From positions 1 through 27,511 of IMG/VR virus record IMGVR_UViG_3300034061_001485: a stretch of DNA of 27,511 nt. One strand, 5' to 3'. A model generated the notes under the pieces. It was given only the letters and a program-made list of their open reading frames with translations. It was not told where the DNA came from and did no database searches. Shown in pieces: positions 19,082 through 27,076 of the stretch; the first letter of the stretch is position 1, and every line of letters begins with the position of its first letter. The translations under genes were made by a program, and so were the position numbers. This DNA is from a virus.

Positions 19082-19539
19082 CCATTTCCGCCCGGTGCGA
19101 ATTGCGCCTGGCAGGCGTGCATCCTGACCTGGTGCGGATGGTGCGGCGCGCGGCTGAAGGCGGGGCGCTGTTCCGGGTGGTGGAAGGGCTGCGATCACAA
19201 GAGCGCCAGCGCGATCTAGTGGCGTCTGGCGCATCGCAAACCATGGCCAGCCGGCACCTGACCGGGCACGCGGTGGATCTGGCGCCTTTTGTAGATGGCG
19301 CCGTTTCTTGGGATTGGAAACATTTCTTCCCGCTTGCCGATGCGGTGGCCGATGCGGCGCGCAAGGAAGGCGTGCCGATCATCTGGGGCGGCGCATGGGG
19401 ACGGCTGGTGCAGGATTGGCCGAAAGGCGGCGCTAAGTCTGCACAGGACGCCTATGCGGCAGAGCGCAAGGCGGCGGGCCGTAAGCCATTTCTGGACGGC
19501 CCGCACTTTGAATTGCCGGCGGCTGATTATCCAGCTTGA
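19078..19539 (+). CDS. Endolysin, M15 family peptidase (L-Ala-D-Glu / D-Ala-D-Ala type)
   Basis: This is a 153-residue single-domain zinc peptidase that cuts peptide stems of peptidoglycan. Visible motifs: VVEGLRSQERQRDL (substrate-side Arg39), the zinc signature SRHLTGHAVDL with ligands His60 and Asp67, and DGPHFEL with Asp140 and the third zinc ligand His143, spaced as in T5-type endolysins. There is no signal peptide, so it depends on a holin. It is the last gene of the long rightward operon. Its final 13 bases overlap the tail of a leftward gene, and no intrinsic terminator is visible between them. Confidence 0.9.
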   Translation: MTISARCELRLAGVHPDLVRMVRRAAEGGALFRVVEGLRSQERQRDLVASGASQTMASRHLTGHAVDLAPFVDGAVSWDWKHFFPLADAVADAARKEGVPIIWGGAWGRLVQDWPKGGAKSAQDAYAAERKAAGRKPFLDGPHFELPAADYPA

Positions 19540-19991
19540 TTGTTTGGTGATGTCAAAAGATCAAGCATTCTGTCTGAGAGTTTTAATCCCTTTGCAAGTG
19601 CCCCTTTTGCGGCTGCCACTTGAAGCGCCTCATTAAGCTTATGATTTTTTGCTGGAATTTGCCCGCGCGCCATAGCAATTTGGATAGATTTTCGCGATCT
19701 CCCCAAAATTTCCCCAACTTGCGTGTATGAAGCGCCATTATCAAGCAATGTCGCAGCCTTATGGCAATCTTCACTAGTCCATCTTTTCCGGGACATATCC
19801 ACAATATTTTTAGACCGGATTGGCATGATTTCAGTCGGCGCGGATTGGATTACAGCTTTTGCTTGTAATGGTGCGGGTGGCGCCTTTTCTTCCTGCACAA
19901 ATGCCACCATATCGCGCGCCAATGCCAATGCTTCCTTAGCATCTTTGCTGGCACCAATTGCCAGCTTTAAGATTTCCATACGATCCATCAT
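19527..19991 (-). CDS. Myb/SANT-like helix-turn-helix protein, possible regulator
   Basis: This is a 154-residue protein. The N-terminal helix (MEILKLAIGASKDAKEALAL) is followed by a Pro/Ala linker. A central HTH starts RKRWTSEDCHKAATLLDNGA and continues SYTQVGEILGRSRKSIQIAM, with the W-x-x-E-D opening and Q-V/I-G-x-x-L-G-R-S turn of Myb/SANT- and GcrA-type DNA-binding domains. The C-terminal part is Ala/Lys-rich. The start is placed at 19991 because AGGGAG lies just upstream; 19988 (second Met) is equally possible. It is the last gene of the leftward operon, convergent with and overlapping the endolysin gene. A role as regulator or small-terminase-like DNA binder is inference. Confidence 0.62.
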   Translation of the reverse strand: MMDRMEILKLAIGASKDAKEALALARDMVAFVQEEKAPPAPLQAKAVIQSAPTEIMPIRSKNIVDMSRKRWTSEDCHKAATLLDNGASYTQVGEILGRSRKSIQIAMARGQIPAKNHKLNEALQVAAAKGALAKGLKLSDRMLDLLTSPNNQAG

Positions 19992-19999
19992 CTTTCTCC

Positions 20000-20233
20000 C
20001 TAAGACATCCGTTCCACAACGCAAGCCGCTTCTGACACAACCTTGCAGCTAAAGCGCCAGCTTTCGCGCTGCTTATGCAGCACGGATAGCAACGGCGCGA
20101 TGCTTTTGCGCGGGCGGGCTATATGCAGCCTGTCACCCGGGGCCATGTCCCGGAAAGGGTATTTGTAACCCTTTGGGCCGGGCTTTTTCTTGATGCGCTT
20201 TGGCGCTTCAGACGCCTGGAAATCCTCACTCAT
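20000..20233 (-). CDS. Small basic protein with AT-hook-like KKKPGPKGYKYPF motif
   Basis: This is a 77-residue protein. A Lys-rich start (KRIKKKPGPKGYKYPFRDM) resembles an AT-hook. It is followed by APGDRLHIARPRKSIAPLLS and a C-terminal segment, QRESWRFSCKVVSE. A similar 'YPF-x-x-M-x-x-GD' pattern occurs in small phage proteins of unknown function. It is coupled to the RecT-like gene by an ATGA overlap (20230-20233) and followed after eight bases by the HTH gene, so it may assist DNA metabolism or regulation. No catalytic motif is visible. Confidence 0.58.
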   Translation of the reverse strand: MSEDFQASEAPKRIKKKPGPKGYKYPFRDMAPGDRLHIARPRKSIAPLLSVLHKQRESWRFSCKVVSEAACVVERMS

Positions 20234-21075: not shown

Positions 21076-21618
21076 TCAGGCTTCCTTTGCCGTGATAAAG
21101 AGGGAAGGCGCGCTTTCTTCAATCACCGCGCCAGGTATGGTTTCGCCCTGCTTAATGCGGGCGTTGATCAGGGCCTTGTTGACTTCATATTTGACCCGCC
21201 AAACATCGGCGGGAAGGGCTTTCTCATCTGTCACAACAACGCGATCAGACCCGCGCCGTAGCGTGGCGGTATGATGCAGCGATTCGGCGGTAGCCGCGCC
21301 AGGATCACCACATTCAGCCAAGGCGGCGCGCAAGGCTTCCCGCGCCGCGCTGGCGGTGAAATCCAATTCCTTTTGCATCCGCGCCAGGGTTTGCACCAAG
21401 GCGGATATTTCATTGCGGGCGGCTTCGATAGCCGTCACCGCGCCAAGCGCGCCGCCAAGGACGCCTTCAAGGCTATTGGCGCCGATCCGGCGCGCATAAG
21501 ACGCCGCCATAAGCGCGCCTTCAATTCGAGCGAGCCAATTGCCAGGCAGCGGATTGGCTGGAACATCCAGCGCCGCAACGCGCTGGCGTAGGGTTTCCGT
21601 GATGTTATCGGCGGTCAT
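21076..21618 (-). CDS. Gp157-like phage protein
   Basis: This is a 180-residue helical protein. The N-terminal ~115 residues are Ala-rich helices (ALMAASYARRIGANSLEGVL; ARMQKELDFTASAAREALRA). The C-terminal 60 residues (LRRGSDRVVVTDEKALPADV, WRVKYEVNKALINARIKQGE, TIPGAVIEESAPSLFI) match the end of the Siphovirus Gp157 family. Gp157 genes commonly accompany RecT and other recombination genes, and one member was linked to phage resistance in Streptococcus; the activity is unknown. It is coupled upstream by an ATGA overlap with the pentapeptide gene. Confidence 0.72.
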   Translation of the reverse strand: MTADNITETLRQRVAALDVPANPLPGNWLARIEGALMAASYARRIGANSLEGVLGGALGAVTAIEAARNEISALVQTLARMQKELDFTASAAREALRAALAECGDPGAATAESLHHTATLRRGSDRVVVTDEKALPADVWRVKYEVNKALINARIKQGETIPGAVIEESAPSLFITAKEA

Positions 21619-22295
21619 TGCGCTAATCCTTTACGCTGAATAGCTTTTTCAAACATATCAAGAATGTCTTGCGTTTCGTCGCCCAGAGGCGTCCCGGCGC
21701 GGGTGGCGGTCCAATGCGCGCGGGCTTCAGCCATGCCGAAAAACCGGCACCCGGCGTTGACGTAAAAACCATCTTCGCATTGCCAAAGGAAAAACTCGTA
21801 TCCATCTGACCGTATGGCGCGGCGCAGGATACCGACGGCGGTTTTGTTGTTGTTGATTTTGGCGCCGGCCAAATCCGCGCCGGCCAAATACGCGCCGGCC
21901 AAATACGCGCCGGCCAAATTCGCGCGGGCCAAATTCGCGCGGGCCAAATTCGCGCCGGCCAAATTCGCGCGGGCCAAATTCGCGCGGGCCAAATTCGCGC
22001 CGGCCAAATTCGTGCCGGCCAAATACGCGCCGGCCAAATACGCGCGGGCCAAATTCGCGCGGGCCAAATTCGCGCCGGCCAAATCCGCGCGGGCCAAATT
22101 CGCGCCGGCCAAATTCGCGCCGGCCAAATCCGCGCGGGCCAAATACGCGCCGGCCAAATCCGCGCCGGCCAAATACGCGCCGGCCAAATACGCGCCGGCC
22201 AAATACGCGCCGGCCAAATACGCGCATTTTCCGCCTTTGCCGTCGCGCCATAGCTTGTGATCCGCTAGCATGGCGGCGATTTCTTCCGGTTTCAT
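21615..22295 (-). CDS. Pentapeptide-repeat protein with near-identical repeat units
   Basis: This is a 226-residue protein. Residues 1-24 (MKPEEIAAMLADHKLWRDG) match the cap before phage pentapeptide domains. Residues about 25-144 are 24 units of A-(N/Y/D)-L-A-(G/R), which should fold as a right-handed quadrilateral beta-helix with Leu inside. The last ~80 residues (SDGYEFFLWQCEDGFYVNAG, then RFFGMAEARAHWTATRAGTP) are a conserved phage C-terminal domain. Unlike Qnr/MfpA DNA mimics, the repeats carry eight Arg and only four Asp, so the face is not acidic. The start at 22295 overlaps the preceding stop as ATGA. The role is unknown; it is encoded with RecT and Gp157 genes, which may hint at DNA transactions. 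Confidence 0.85.
   Translation of the reverse strand: MKPEEIAAMLADHKLWRDGKGGKCAYLAGAYLAGAYLAGAYLAGADLAGAYLARADLAGANLAGANLARADLAGANLARANLARAYLAGAYLAGTNLAGANLARANLARANLAGANLARANLARANLAGAYLAGAYLAGADLAGAKINNNKTAVGILRRAIRSDGYEFFLWQCEDGFYVNAGCRFFGMAEARAHWTATRAGTPLGDETQDILDMFEKAIQRKGLAQ
21864..22223 (-). repeat. Array of 24 tandem 15-bp units encoding pentapeptides
   Basis: On the + strand each unit reads GCCGGCCAAAT(A/C/T)CGC or with GCG as the first triplet. Only two positions vary (Tyr/Asp/Asn codon and Gly/Arg codon), plus one further substitution giving a Thr unit. Because the period is a multiple of three, all frames on both strands stay open across the array. Confidence 0.95.
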
Positions 22296-22540
22296 TGCCC
22301 ATCTCCAAAAAGTGAAAGCTGCCCCGGTTCGGGGATCAGCACATCGGCGCCAAGCCCGGCCAGGGCATCGGCAATCGCAGCGGCTTCCTGCCGCAGCTCT
22401 GCCGCCATATCGGCGGTCAATTCGGCGCGATCGATCTCGCCGGCATCGTGCATCCGGCGCCCGGAAGCTTCCATCTGCCGGGCATCCAGCACCAGGCGCG
22501 CATGAAGCGCGACAAGGCGGGCGGTGGTTTCGGCGCGCAT
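22292..22540 (-). CDS. Small helical protein, function unknown
   Basis: This is an 82-residue protein, Ala/Glu/Arg-rich and predicted helical throughout (MRAETTARLVALHARLVLDA, RQMEASGRRMHDAGEIDRAE, LTADMAAELRQEAAAIADAL), with a short C-terminal tail PGQLSLFGDGQ. The tail resembles a QLSLF-type beta-clamp (DnaN) binding peptide, which would be interesting in a recombination operon but is only a motif match. The ATG at 22540 is used; a TTG at 22546 would create a four-base TTGA overlap with the upstream stop. The stop overlaps the pentapeptide start as ATGA. Confidence 0.58.
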   Translation of the reverse strand: MRAETTARLVALHARLVLDARQMEASGRRMHDAGEIDRAELTADMAAELRQEAAAIADALAGLGADVLIPEPGQLSLFGDGQ

Positions 22541-22542
22541 GA

Positions 22543-22719
22543 TCAAAAATTCCAGGCAACGGCGCCAAGATCAGCGCAAACGCGGCGGGCTTCACGGCGC
22601 CCGGAAACGGGCACGCGCTGGCCCGCGCCGTAGTCTTGGCCAGCATTTACGATAGTCAGGAACCAGCCAGCTTTGCCGCCGTTGGTGAGATATGCGCGTT
22701 TTGCAGGAAGGCTATTCAT
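22543..22719 (-). CDS. Small protein, function unknown
   Basis: This is a 58-residue protein (MNSLPAKRAYLTNGGKAGWF, LTIVNAGQDYGAGQRVPVSG, RREARRVCADLGAVAWNF). The pattern of short beta strands followed by a basic helix ('REAR..C..LG') resembles small phage proteins whose ends hold an 'EAR' helix, but I do not recognise a named family. The start is well defined: GGAGG lies eight bases before the ATG at 22719. It follows a 67-base non-coding gap containing a hairpin, so this may be the first gene of a separately controlled part of the operon. Confidence 0.6.
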   Translation of the reverse strand: MNSLPAKRAYLTNGGKAGWFLTIVNAGQDYGAGQRVPVSGRREARRVCADLGAVAWNF

Positions 22720-23077: not shown

Positions 23078-23407
23078 TTACACCCGCACCGGCAATGATG
23101 GGAAATAATTTTCGCGGCGATAGGGCGGCGCATCAGCTTCAGCGCGTTCTAGAGCCTTGCCGACAATATCTGAAAGAGCATCGTTCAGATGTTCCGGCAA
23201 CATCTTGTAATCTTCCGCGATTTTATCCGTGGAGCAGTGCGCCGCATCCTTGCGTAGCTTTTCCATGGTGGCCATCAAAGATTCCACCGCGTAAAGCGCA
23301 AGGAATGCGCGTGTTACGTCAGGATGTTCGTCACCGCGCCGATCCGTTGGCGCAAGGTCCAATTGCTCTTTCCAGCGGATGATATCCATTTCAATGCCAT
23401 TTTCCAT
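23078..23407 (-). CDS. First protein of leftward operon, function unknown
   Basis: This is a 109-residue, acidic, helical protein (MENGIEMDIIRWKEQLDLAP, TRAFLALYAVESLMATMEKL, EDYKMLPEHLNDALSDIVGK). I do not recognise the family and see no HTH or catalytic motif. The ATG at 23407 is chosen over the longer frame because AAGGGAG sits eight bases upstream. As the first gene behind the leftward promoter it occupies the place of an early regulator (lambda N/cIII-like position), but it does not look like a CI repressor. Confidence 0.65.
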   Translation of the reverse strand: MENGIEMDIIRWKEQLDLAPTDRRGDEHPDVTRAFLALYAVESLMATMEKLRKDAAHCSTDKIAEDYKMLPEHLNDALSDIVGKALERAEADAPPYRRENYFPSLPVRV

Positions 23408-23440
23408 GGGTCTATCTCCCTTGTGTTTTCCGATAGGCAA

Positions 23441-23468
23441 ACCCTACCACAAGAAAATTTAACGTCAA
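23441..23468 (-). promoter_or_regulatory. Candidate leftward early promoter
   Basis: Reading leftward: -35 TTGACG (complement of 23463-23468), a 16-base spacer, and -10 TAGGGT (complement of 23441-23446), about 34 bases before the first leftward start. The -35 is strong, the -10 weak. It faces away from the rightward promoter at 23482-23509. Confidence 0.45.
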
Positions 23469-23481
23469 GAAAAAAATTCGC

Positions 23482-23509
23482 TTGACCCTGAAATTTTTTC
23501 AGGTATTGT
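23482..23509 (+). promoter_or_regulatory. Candidate rightward early promoter (upstream of Cro-like gene)
   Basis: TTGACC (23482-23487), 16-base spacer, TATTGT (23504-23509). The ATG of the Cro-like gene at 23517 lies so close that the transcript would be nearly leaderless. No Shine-Dalgarno sequence is visible before that ATG, which agrees. Confidence 0.5.
23487..23503. promoter_or_regulatory. 17-bp perfect palindrome, probable operator
   Basis: CCTGAAATTTTTTCAGG: arms CCTGAAA and TTTCAGG around a TTT centre. It fills the spacer between the -35 and -10 of the rightward promoter, the usual place for a repressor or Cro-type operator. It is the best candidate site for the Cro-like protein encoded immediately downstream. 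No second perfect copy was found in the divergent region. Confidence 0.6.
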
Positions 23510-23516
23510 GCCAAGC

Positions 23517-23720
23517 ATGATTGAGAACCCTAAACAACTGATTGACAAGCTCGGCGGCGCTACGAAGCTGGCGCTGGCCATTGGTTCAACCGCTGGCGCC
23601 GTAGGGAAATGGCCTATTCATGGCATTCCATTCAGGCACCACGCCATGCTGCGCCAGGTGGCACGGCGCCGGGTAAGCCGGGCCGAATTGGACGCCGTGC
23701 TGGCATGGGGCCGCAAGTGA
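23517..23720 (+). CDS. Cro-like / carph-isopro HTH transcription regulator
   Basis: This is a 67-residue protein. Residues about 7-45 (QLIDKLGGATKLALAIGSTA, GAVGKWPIHGIPFRHH) match small phage Cro/YdaS-like HTH proteins of the 'carph-isopro' type: L-x-G-G-x-T-x-x-A at the first helix and V-x-x-W followed by I-P after the recognition helix. The C-terminus is a basic helix. It probably binds the 17-bp palindrome just upstream and controls its own promoter. The ATG at 23517 is used; GTG 23508 would overlap the -10. The stop overlaps the next GTG start as GTGA. Confidence 0.78.
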   Translation: MIENPKQLIDKLGGATKLALAIGSTAGAVGKWPIHGIPFRHHAMLRQVARRRVSRAELDAVLAWGRK

Positions 23721-23956
23721 CGCTTTGGGCCAATATCGCCGCCGGCACAGTGCGGTTGACACCAGATCAGGACGCCGCGCTTTGGCGCTTGCGGGCCGAG
23801 GGCAAGGGCTGGAACGCCATTGAACGGACCCTACGCGGCATGGTGCGGCGGCTTGAAGTGCGGGCCAGGCCGTGCCTGAAATGTGGGAAGATATACGCCA
23901 GCCATGACCGGCGGCGGAAGTTTTGTGCATCCTGTGGAGGAAGAAATGAGAAATAA
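23717..23956 (+). CDS. Small HTH plus zinc-ribbon protein, putative DNA binder
   Basis: This is a 79-residue protein. Residues 14-40 (LTPDQDAALWRLRAEGKGWN followed by AIERTL) look like a Myb/Trp-rich HTH related in style to GcrA's N-terminus. Residues 53-73 hold CLKCGKIY and FCASCG, a four-cysteine zinc ribbon (Cys53, Cys56, Cys70, Cys73). The GTG start at 23717 gives a GTGA overlap with the Cro-like gene; an in-frame ATG at 23705 is possible. It overlaps the GcrA-like gene by 11 bases. A regulator working with its neighbours is plausible but unproven. Confidence 0.65.
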   Translation: MTLWANIAAGTVRLTPDQDAALWRLRAEGKGWNAIERTLRGMVRRLEVRARPCLKCGKIYASHDRRRKFCASCGGRNEK

Positions 23957-24641
23957 TAGATATGTAAACCCTTGGACGCCCGAGAGGGATGCCCAGCTGC
24001 GCGCGCATTGGGCTTCCGGGCTGTCAACGCGCCGGATTGGCGATGCGATGGGATTGAGTAAAAACAGCATCGTTGGCAGGGCCCATCGGTTGGGGCTTGC
24101 GGCGCGCGAAAATCCGGCGAGCATCCCGGTGGCACCGATTACGGAACATCAGCGTGAGGTGGTGCAGCGCATGTGGTATAGCGCCGGGAACGCTGAGATT
24201 ATGCGCGCCGCCGGGATGGGCTGGAAGCGCATCCTGCGAGTTGCGGCGGAATTGCAGTTACCGCCAAGGAATGCGATTCGTGCCATGGTGGCACGGACGC
24301 AGGCGGCGCGCATCAATACCCCCCCGATGCGTGCCGCCTTTTTCTCCCGCGCGACTTTCTCACGCGCGGTTGAGGCCGGGCCTTCCTCCCTCCCGGCAGC
24401 TAACTTGCCGGGCGCTGCGCCGCGCTTGCCGTTGACGCAGCGCCCGGTCTTTTCCAGCCATCCGTGCCGCTTTCCTTTGTGGGGAGACAAAGAACGCCCC
24501 ACGCATTGTTATTGTGATGCGCCAGCCGTTGCGCTGATCAATGGCCGGCCGTCCCGTTATTGTGTGGCCCATTATGAAGCCTGTTATTACATGCCGATGG
24601 CGGAAGCCGGGATGCCCAAGCCGTTCAAGTGGAGGGATTGA
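23946..24641 (+). CDS. Phage-encoded GcrA-like cell-cycle regulator
   Basis: This is a 231-residue protein. Residues 10-51 form the GcrA-type DNA-binding domain: WTPERDAQLRAHWASGLSTR then RIGDAMGLSKNSIVGRAHRL. Residues about 65-105 add a second helical, possibly HTH-like segment (ITEHQREVVQRMWYSAGNAE). A Ser/Pro/Ala-rich linker leads to the C-terminal GcrA motif at 172-215: HPCRFPLWGDKERPTHCYC with Cys174, Cys188, Cys190, then RYCVAHYEACYY with Cys206 and His209. In Caulobacter, GcrA binds sigma70-RNA polymerase through its C-terminal part and activates promoters with methylated GANTC. This copy is longer than typical GcrA because of the middle segment. GGAGG six bases upstream fixes the start. 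Confidence 0.85.
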   Translation: MRNNRYVNPWTPERDAQLRAHWASGLSTRRIGDAMGLSKNSIVGRAHRLGLAARENPASIPVAPITEHQREVVQRMWYSAGNAEIMRAAGMGWKRILRVAAELQLPPRNAIRAMVARTQAARINTPPMRAAFFSRATFSRAVEAGPSSLPAANLPGAAPRLPLTQRPVFSSHPCRFPLWGDKERPTHCYCDAPAVALINGRPSRYCVAHYEACYYMPMAEAGMPKPFKWRD

Positions 24642-24642
24642 G

Positions 24643-24831
24643 ATGAGCGATTTTATCGGCGGCTGGCCTTGGCTTGAAATGCCTGAAGTGCCCCGCGTTG
24701 TGGTGGTGCAGATTGCGCGCGAAGTGCTGCCCGTGCTTTTGGTGCGGGATATCGCGCCATCTCCCACTACTGCGGCAGATTTGGCGTTTCAATATGCCGA
24801 GGCTTTTGTGAAAAAGGCGCAACGGGCATGA
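24643..24831 (+). CDS. Small protein between GcrA-like and helicase genes, function unknown
   Basis: This is a 62-residue protein (MSDFIGGWPWLEMPEVPRVV, VVQIAREVLPVLLVRDIAPS, PTTAADLAFQYAEAFVKKAQ). The first part is aromatic and acidic; then comes a mixed strand/helix region and a C-terminal helix. No family is recognised. GGAGGG precedes the start, and the stop overlaps the helicase start as ATGA, so it is probably translated with the helicase. Confidence 0.6.
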   Translation: MSDFIGGWPWLEMPEVPRVVVVQIAREVLPVLLVRDIAPSPTTAADLAFQYAEAFVKKAQRA

Positions 24832-26192
24832 ATGAAGAATATCTCGCGTTTCTCGCCGCAAAGCGGCCTGCAGCGCATTCAACCGGGCTTGCATCAGTTC
24901 CAGACCTTCACCCGGCATTGAAGCCGCATCAGCGCGATTGCGTTGCTTTCGGGCTTCGGCAAGGCCGATTTGGATTGTTCCTTGACACTGGCATGGGTAA
25001 GACCTTTGCCCAGCTTGAATGGGCCAATCATGCGCTTGAGGCCAGCAATGGCAAGGCGCTGATCCTGGCGCCATTAGCGGTGGCCGCGCAGATCGTGCGC
25101 GAAGGCAAGGCGCGCGGCTATGAGGTGCAGCAAATCCGCGATCAGGCCGATGCCCGCGAAGGCATTAACGTGTGCAACTATGACCGCCTAGATAGGCTGG
25201 ACTTTGACGCTTTTGGCGCCGTGTCCCTGGATGAAAGCAGCATCCTGAAAAGCTTCACCGGAAAGACAACGCGCGCCTTGATTGATGCTTTCCGTGATCA
25301 TCGCTTTCGCTGCGCTGCAACCGCAACGCCGGCGCCGAATGATCACATGGAACTGGGGCAACATGCGGAATTTCTTGGCGTGATGCCTTCCAATGAAATG
25401 CTGATGCGTTGGTTCATTGCCGATCAAACCGAAATGGGCCGCTACCGGCTGAAAGGCCACGCCCAAGATTCCTTTTGGGATTGGATGGCGTCTTGGTGCC
25501 GGATGGCTGAAACCCCGGCTGATTTCGGATATGATGCCAGCGAGTATGTCCTGCCGCCGTTGAACGTGCATCGCCACAAGGCCGTTGGCGATGTTCGCGC
25601 GCCTGCTGGATTGCTTTTTATGGGCGATCTATCGGCAACCACGCTGCACGAAACCAAGCGTCAGACCGCGCAAGCACGCGCGCAAGCCATCGCGGCAATC
25701 ATGCCGGCCAATGATGCTTGCGTGGTTTGGTGCGACACGGACTATGAAGCCGATGCCATCCGCGCCGAAATTCCTGAAATCCAGGAAGTTCGCGGTTCGC
25801 ATCCGATCGAACGCAAAGAAGCAACCCTTGAAGCCTTTGCGTCTGGCGAGGTGAAGTGGCTTTTGACCAAACCAAGCGTGGCCGGGTTCGGCATGAATTG
25901 GCAACACTGCGCGACGATGATCTTCGCTGGGCGGTCATTTAGCTATGAGGCTTGGTATCAGGCAGTTCGCCGTTGCTGGCGATATGGGCAACAGCGCCCG
26001 GTTGACTGCCATCTGATTGTTGCCGAAGGTGAGGATCAAATTGGCCGCGTCATTGACCGCAAGAGCGCCGATCATACCAAGATGAAGCAAGCCATGTCAT
26101 CCGCAATGCGCCGCGCCATGGCGCAGGATGCTGGCGTGCGCGTTCCATATCAACCGACACACAAAGGGGAGTTTGCATCGTGGATTTCGTGA
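24828..26192 (+). CDS. SNF2-type DEAD/DEAH-box helicase (dsDNA translocase)
   Basis: This is a 454-residue superfamily 2 ATPase. It shows LKPHQ (31-35), Walker A LDTGMGKTF with Lys58-Thr59, Walker B-like DESS (135-138), and motif III TATPAPN (165-171). In the C-terminal lobe it shows LLTKPSVAGFGMNWQ and motif VI QAVRRCWRYGQ (378-388), with the finger residues Arg382 and Arg385. It should use ATP to move on double-stranded DNA. The substrate is unknown. It precedes a DNA methyltransferase with overlapping ends, a pairing I have seen in other phages, so it may serve modification, anti-restriction or replication. It is compact, with no extra nuclease domain. Confidence 0.87.
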   Translation: MNEEYLAFLAAKRPAAHSTGLASVPDLHPALKPHQRDCVAFGLRQGRFGLFLDTGMGKTFAQLEWANHALEASNGKALILAPLAVAAQIVREGKARGYEVQQIRDQADAREGINVCNYDRLDRLDFDAFGAVSLDESSILKSFTGKTTRALIDAFRDHRFRCAATATPAPNDHMELGQHAEFLGVMPSNEMLMRWFIADQTEMGRYRLKGHAQDSFWDWMASWCRMAETPADFGYDASEYVLPPLNVHRHKAVGDVRAPAGLLFMGDLSATTLHETKRQTAQARAQAIAAIMPANDACVVWCDTDYEADAIRAEIPEIQEVRGSHPIERKEATLEAFASGEVKWLLTKPSVAGFGMNWQHCATMIFAGRSFSYEAWYQAVRRCWRYGQQRPVDCHLIVAEGEDQIGRVIDRKSADHTKMKQAMSSAMRRAMAQDAGVRVPYQPTHKGEFASWIS

Positions 26193-27076
26193 GTTTGGGA
26201 AGCAACCAAGGCGATAACTGGCAAGCCATCCATGGCGATTGCGTGGATGTAGTGCGCCAGATGCCTGATGAAAGCGTTGGGTTTTCGGTCTATTCGCCGC
26301 CGTTTTCAGGGCTTTACATCTATAATGATTCCGAAGCCGATATGGGAAACTGCGCCAATGACGCGGAGTTTGCGTTACAGTATCGGTTTTTGGTGCGGGA
26401 ATTATTCCGCGTGACCAAGCCGGGCCGATTGGTAGCCGTGCATTGCAAGGACTTGGTTTATTACCGCACGCAAACCGGCCATGACGCGGGCTTGCGCGAT
26501 TTTCCGGGCTTGCTTGTGAAAGAACATACCGACGCTGGTTTTTCTTTTCATTCGCGAGTGACGATCTGGCGCTGCCCTGTGCGGGAAATGACGAAAACCA
26601 AGGCGCATGGCCTGCTTTACAAGCAACTGCGGGCCGATAGCACATTCAGCCGGCAGGGCTTGCCTGAGTATCTTTTGATCTTTCGCAAATGGGCGCGCGA
26701 AGGCCAGGAGGTGGTTCCTGTCACGCATACGCCTGAAAGTTTCCCTCTTGATCAGTGGCAACAATGGGCTTCACCAGTTTGGATGGATACGCGCGAAACT
26801 GATGTTTTGAATGCCACCCGAGATCCCAAAGATGAAAAGCATATCTGCCCAATGCCGCTTGATCTAACAACGCGCGCTGTCACCATGTGGAGCAACCCCG
26901 GCGATACGGTTTTAAGCCCGTTCATGGGTATTGGCAGCGAGGGGTTTTGCGCGTTAAAACTGAAGCGGCGGTTTGTCGGAGTGGAATTGAAAGAAAGCTA
27001 TTTCCGGCAAGCATCGCGCAACCTGGCAGCGGCGGAGCGTTCCGCTGAGAGCCTTTTCGATTGGGCAGCCGCATGA
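26180..27076 (+). CDS. DNA methyltransferase, beta-class (N4-cytosine or N6-adenine)
   Basis: This is a 298-residue enzyme with the beta-class motif order: catalytic motif IV SPPF (39-42) near the N-terminus and the AdoMet-binding motif I-like TVLSPFMGIGSEG (Ser246-Gly255) near the C-terminus, followed by VGVELKESYF. Ser in SPPF is more usual in N4-cytosine enzymes, but base specificity cannot be read safely. It is not CcrM-like, because DPPY is absent. Start GTG 26180 has AGGGGAG nine bases upstream and overlaps the helicase gene by 13 bases; GTG 26189 would give a GTGA overlap. No cognate restriction endonuclease is seen, so protection or regulation is likelier than a full restriction system. 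Confidence 0.88.
   Translation: MDFVSLGSNQGDNWQAIHGDCVDVVRQMPDESVGFSVYSPPFSGLYIYNDSEADMGNCANDAEFALQYRFLVRELFRVTKPGRLVAVHCKDLVYYRTQTGHDAGLRDFPGLLVKEHTDAGFSFHSRVTIWRCPVREMTKTKAHGLLYKQLRADSTFSRQGLPEYLLIFRKWAREGQEVVPVTHTPESFPLDQWQQWASPVWMDTRETDVLNATRDPKDEKHICPMPLDLTTRAVTMWSNPGDTVLSPFMGIGSEGFCALKLKRRFVGVELKESYFRQASRNLAAAERSAESLFDWAAA

Follow-up and report, generated by a model that had tools for sequence, protein, structure and literature searches.

The window analysed here (27,511 nucleotides) is the whole of one IMG/VR virus record, IMGVR_UViG_3300034061_001485, and comes from a phage whose coat protein is of the P22 type. Comparison by protein and by DNA found no close relative of it among GenBank phages, and no tyrosine integrase was found in the window or in its relative G001. 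The locus of interest is a rightward run of genes, one of which encodes a GcrA-family protein with two HTH domains (Table 1). The start of this gene is placed at the ATG at 23946, with GGAGGAAGAA upstream, and its stop at 24641; starting instead from the in-frame GTG at 23883 would lengthen the protein by 21 residues, but the sequence before that codon makes a poor-looking ribosome site.

Table 1. Features of the gcrA locus, in window coordinates; residue numbers refer to the GcrA-family protein.
Feature	Position	Strand	Evidence and remarks
Imperfect inverted repeat, candidate operator	23445..23505	.	overlaps the -35 box
Sigma70-like promoter of the cro-gcrA operon	23482..23509	+	TTGACC-16-TATTGT; consensus match only
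Cro/YdaS-like HTH gene	23517..23720	+	PF15943 YdaS 30.7 bits (cut-off 30); P22_Cro 23 bits, below cut-off
Small HTH-like and Zn-ribbon protein, 83 aa	23705..23956	+	CxxC...CxxC; weak Zn-ribbon matches below cut-off
Tandem-HTH GcrA-family gene	23946..24641	+	231 aa; ribosome-site-like GGAGG; PF07750 52.1 bits
HTH1, GcrA-type DNA-binding domain (residues 10-51)	23973..24098	+	phmmer 7ye1/5yiu; Foldseek 5yiu; AF2 helices
HTH2, diverged second HTH (residues 62-106)	24129..24263	+	AF2; profile-profile match; lacks the [KR]N..G[RK].H signature
Additional helix after HTH2 (residues 108-123)	24267..24314	+	AF2; AR.NT.P.R conserved with L048/L049
Linker (residues 124-167)	24315..24446	+	AF2
Sigma-interaction-like domain (SID; residues 168-221)	24447..24608	+	canonical SID HMM; alignments; Foldseek 5yix_B weak
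62-aa ORF	24643..24831	+	homologue (62-64% identity) follows GcrA in L048/L049
SF2/SNF2-type helicase	24828..26192	+	phrog_62 E=2e-58
Beta-class DNA methyltransferase (SPPF motif)	26180..27076	+	PF01555 70.9 bits

When the window genes were compared by tblastn with the loci of relatives, they were found to form a recurring cassette, with RecT, Gp157 and pentapeptide-repeat genes reading leftward and a Cro/YdaS-like gene, optionally a Zn-ribbon gene, GcrA, the helicase and the methyltransferase reading rightward. Cro/YdaS-like homologues lie 5' of GcrA in L018, L020-L022, L026, L028, L030, L031, L036 and L092, and a homologue of the Zn-ribbon gene, which in the window overlaps the gcrA start, occupies this position in L023/L025. 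The initial annotation had set gcrA directly behind a Cro-like switch. There is a Cro/YdaS-like gene upstream, but the Zn-ribbon gene intervenes and no repressor gene was identified opposite the cro-like gene, where a divergent 120-aa ORF (23078-23440) has no family match. A consensus promoter scan gave two matches in this region (0.4 +/- 0.6 in shuffles). The arms of the inverted repeat are 25 nt long, 72% complementary and 11 nt apart, and in relative L028 the corresponding place is taken by a repeat of 21 nt with 90% complementarity. On spacing alone, we infer that the cro-gcrA genes are co-transcribed. Two minus-strand genes elsewhere in the window were also recorded: one (19527-20024) encodes a separate DNA-binding protein with a weak GcrA/HTH_23-like HTH (PF07750 13 bits; phrog_664), and the other (21615-22646) a long pentapeptide-repeat protein (A-x-L-A-x) which adjoins the cassette in several relatives too.

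The Pfam GcrA model PF07750 matches residues 10-214 of the window protein at 52.1 bits (cut-off 26.9), and the nearest solved structures by sequence (phmmer, PDB) are the GcrA chains 7ye1 (E=1.6e-6) and 5yiu (E=1.3e-5). Judged by its sequence, the protein is a member of the GcrA family as Pfam defines it. Orthology is a different matter and was rejected: the NCBIfam equivalog model for the cell cycle sigma 70 cofactor GcrA (NF050816) scores 35.6 bits against a cut-off of 280, over residues 10-72 only, and the architecture expected of an ortholog (one HTH, an unstructured linker and a SID) is broken by HTH2 at 67-102 and the helix at 108-123. The GcrA of Caulobacter crescentus (PF07750; 5yiu, 5yix, 7ye1) likewise has an N-terminal HTH, a long linker and the C..P/C/YCxxH motif; it has a single HTH in 173 residues, whereas the window protein has two HTHs and an extra helix in 231. 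In the C. crescentus protein the DNA-binding domain spans residues 1-45, the unstructured linker 46-107 and the SID 108-173, and sigma2 is the target (PMC7403470).

The profile searches and structure prediction against GcrA which the initial annotation had proposed bear out its identification of a GcrA homologue at both ends of the chain. In an AlphaFold2 (AF2) model using ten related sequences, HTH1 is formed by helices 12-23, 28-35 and 39-48 with pLDDT near 90 or above, and Foldseek superposes it on the solved GcrA DNA-binding domain 5yiu at 0.8 Å over 43 residues (prob 1.00). The W-x-x-E-R-D motif claimed for this domain is present as W-T-P-E-R-D, and the domain carries the signature SKNSIVGRAHR.

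An extra HTH-like segment had been noticed at about residues 65-105, and it is real. The AF2 model contains three helices there (67-76, 82-89 and 93-102; pLDDT about 87-95), and when an HTH2 profile built on four phages is compared with that of the GcrA HTH, the two align colinearly over 42 columns with a score of 26.95, above all of 100 column shuffles (9.3 +/- 2.3, maximum 19.6). We take this part of the chain to be a second HTH of GcrA type that has diverged. The [KR]N..G[RK].H signature of HTH1 is missing from the HTH2s examined, so HTH2 probably has another target or another mode of binding. By itself the window HTH2 segment scores -1.7 bits against the HTH1 HMM, which is non-significant; with the signature lost as well, it may not bind DNA specifically. 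Matches to the tandem-HTH fold, with weak E-values, include Tc3 transposase (1u78) and Pax-6 (6pax), whose DNA-binding domains are paired. The segment is conserved in the uncultured phages L048, L049 and L074. Beyond it, the linker is predicted to be mostly disordered, with a helix modelled at 127-143 and pLDDT below 50 for residues 129-164.

The C-terminal CRFP...CYC...YCVAH motif is present as first described, in the pattern C-x-F-P, C, YCxxH, and C174, C190, C206 and H209 are invariant across the SID alignment. A canonical-SID HMM built without the window protein matches residues 170-214 at 31.0 bits (E=6e-9 at Z=1000), while the best of 2,000 composition shuffles reaches 13.6 bits. This domain is of lower confidence in the full-length AF2 model. 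Foldseek of a separate SID model (pLDDT 71) returned GcrA-SID 5yix_B as the top PDB match, albeit a weak one (E=1.1, prob 0.60; TM 0.62 normalised by target), so that the structural comparison did not speak against the kinship of residues 172-215 with the GcrA SID, on which the initial annotation had staked its identification; the sequence evidence for it is stronger. A broad SID profile finds 5yix_B with E=3e-13. A profile from the tandem-HTH relatives alone gives no GcrA match in the PDB, which indicates that the link between the window SID and GcrA runs via intermediates. The FPLWGD motif is replaced in the SIDs of several relatives with gcrA in the same slot (L020, L031 and L048), and this does not fit well with an unchanging contact to the conserved sigma70. 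A scan of bacterial genome contigs with the SID pattern gave one chance-like match.

In most of L018-L031 and in L036 and L057, sequence alone suffices to detect a second HTH with significance (E about 1e-9 to 1e-4), and on this basis the tandem HTH is a family trait of the phage relatives. The extra domain had been called unexpected in the host protein, which stands for C. crescentus GcrA; among the phage relatives, however, many have additional HTHs. The GcrA of L057 has three HTHs; those of L044/L046 carry an extra HTH on the N-terminal side of the canonical one. As to sampling, the search that gave 80 of 386 relatives used a two-HTH query, which favours tandem forms.

Comparison of close pairs reveals a mosaic. 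L048 and L049 share 86-100% DNA identity on both sides of a stretch over codons ~158-190, the SID core, where identity falls to 40-62%. The GcrAs of L021 and L030 are alike in HTH2, the linker and most of the SID and differ in HTH1 and the tail, and L092 lacks the HTH2 of L020/L031, with the remaining linker alike. Such comparisons show that GcrA modules move separately between related phages. The L048/L049 difference (in L099 from 714 and in L098 from 4412) has the form of a small exchange tract covering the SID core only. The neighbouring genes have their own history: the helicase and methyltransferase of the window share ~90% identity with their counterparts in L029, L036, L021 and L026, with GcrA at 37-40%, and the helicase is 85-90% identical among phages whose GcrA differs strongly. 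In the methyltransferase gene, blastn leaves the centre (window 26448-26755) unaligned with G001 (L101), a twin phage 96% identical elsewhere, which would fit a swap of the target recognition region.

GANTC is strongly depleted in the window, with 16 sites observed against 58 expected under a maximal-order Markov model. The ratio is 0.15-0.28 in the tandem-HTH phages (the window, G001, G006, G008, G009, G012 and G013), except for G002 at 0.62, and ranges from 0.16 to 0.65 in single-HTH phages, with low values in G014 (0.16) and G017 (0.25). Control phages give 0.40-0.90, including 0.45 for EBPR podovirus 2, 0.40 for Pan4, which has a cyanobacterial host, and 0.56-0.58 for alphaproteobacterial phages. 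GANTC depletion is known for CcrM-positive hosts (PMC3973325), but since the control phages are depleted too, depletion alone does not identify such a host, and the case it makes for a host that is alphaproteobacterial and CcrM-positive is weakened. Mapping of GANTC near phage transcription starts, as the initial annotation had suggested, found none in the ~220 bp (less at contig ends) 5' of the cro-like gene, either in the window or in nine relatives. With the site absent there, methyl-GANTC control of the cro-gcrA promoter, and methyl-GANTC-dependent activation of the cassette from it, are unsupported. Other motifs are also scarce in the whole window (GTAC, 3 against 33 expected; CCGCGG, 0 against 19; GAATTC, 0 against 15.5), which suggests that other restriction or methylation motifs are avoided as well.

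We consider it fairly probable that the protein is a phage relative of GcrA, the sigma70 cofactor, whose one DNA-binding domain has here been turned into a tandem, and that it biases the host polymerase as an activator. By homology, the docking site of the SID would be sigma70 region 2 within the host RNA polymerase holoenzyme, with HTH1 (in which the GcrA recognition-helix signature is kept) and HTH2 (in which the fold is kept and the signature lost) borne on the long flexible linker. The two HTHs may together read a longer bipartite site. Alternatively, one chain might grip DNA where the dimeric host GcrA may use two; given that Caulobacter GcrA is a dimer in solution (PMC3667746), we conjecture that two HTHs on one chain could take the place of the GcrA dimer. 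The position of the gene, after the Cro-like gene and before the helicase and methyltransferase, points to early expression and an early role for the activator, which would bias the host polymerase to a chosen set of promoters. Independent exchange of HTH1, HTH2 and SID between related phages suggests that the target set or the partner is what evolves. It is possible, though we hold this only tentatively, that the tandem-HTH GcrAs as a whole are modular phage cofactors of sigma70, in which recombination shuffles the modules that read DNA and those that contact sigma independently of each other, retargeting polymerase to promoters without methylated GANTC; under that reading, the specificity subunits of restriction systems would offer a somewhat similar case of module shuffling.

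The role of HTH2 admits a different interpretation, which we regard as rather unlikely, in which it is a structural or protein-contact module (for dimerisation, or for another part of RNA polymerase) or has decayed, and the protein works as an ordinary GcrA through HTH1. The lost signature and the failure of a simple HMM to detect HTH2 from HTH1 fit this interpretation, as does L092, whose GcrA occupies the same slot without HTH2 yet has its linker and SID in common with L031/L020, indicating that HTH2 is dispensable in some phages. Against it, HTH2 is a confidently predicted, well-formed three-helix HTH, its tandem-HTH fold matches include paired DNA-binding domains despite their weak E-values, and second HTHs recur in many phages, once as three copies. 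A more distant prospect is that the protein inhibits, with the SID occupying sigma70 or HTH1 occupying GANTC, so as to displace host GcrA and stall the host cell cycle. Sigma-targeting phage proteins for transcription takeover are common (PMC7403470), and passages of the phiCbK report (PMC3556154) propose that phage GcrA copies alter the host state; yet a complete DNA-binding domain and SID, with no domain truncated, are what an activator needs, and two HTHs would be superfluous in a decoy. We judge inhibition unlikely.

Least probable of all is a self-contained epigenetic pair in which the downstream phage methyltransferase writes marks and the tandem GcrA reads them, a scheme which the recurrence of the order GcrA-helicase-methyltransferase in several phages favours. 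The enzyme (26180-27076) is not CcrM: NCBIfam NF050803 scores 48.8 bits against a cut-off of 830, in the C-terminal part only. Nor do the types co-vary. Between the window and G001, GcrA is 99% identical and the methyltransferase 77/51/81% by thirds; conversely, L103, L036, L104 and L026 have the methyltransferase in common (~90%) with GcrA at ~38% identity, and in EBPR podovirus 2 and Pan4 helicase and methylase are paired without an annotated GcrA. On these two grounds the pairing was rejected as unlikely.

That phages carry GcrA genes was already known, as the initial annotation stated: phiCbK gp222 and a protein of Brucella phage EF4 belong to the same family, and in the passages of the phiCbK report at hand (PMC3556154) gp222 is presented through its similarity to host GcrA with no tandem HTH described. 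The phages themselves differ in type, phiCbK being a large siphophage and the window of the P22-coat type. The best full-length structural match in BFVD is UniProt A0A6J5NEL4, a 238-aa 'GcrA cell cycle regulator' from an uncultured Caudovirales phage (33% identity, E=7.5e-12), and judged by this match it is probably of the same tandem type, already deposited as GcrA. We know of no characterisation of it. Tandem GcrA/Myb-like HTHs resembling the HTH2 of the relatives, about seven of them, also occur in WP_185707964 of Sphingobium yanoikuyae, which has no sigma-interaction domain, unlike the window GcrA; its gene (L139:628-1857, plasmid NZ_CP060123.1) is annotated as a 410-aa 'hypothetical protein'. 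In a limited literature of titles, abstracts and passages, no description of a tandem-HTH GcrA was found.

GcrA is one of the few known activators that work via sigma region 2, and the characterised GcrA has one HTH per chain. In the phage GcrAs, where HTHs have been added and SIDs can be exchanged, nature has in effect run domain-swap experiments, which reveal the parts that tolerate replacement. They could show how such a cofactor picks its promoters, and whether phages redirect alphaproteobacterial transcription. With a second DNA-binding domain, and with pieces swapped freely among related viruses, the protein resembles a toolkit of modules with which the host RNA polymerase is steered, more than a simple copy of a host gene.
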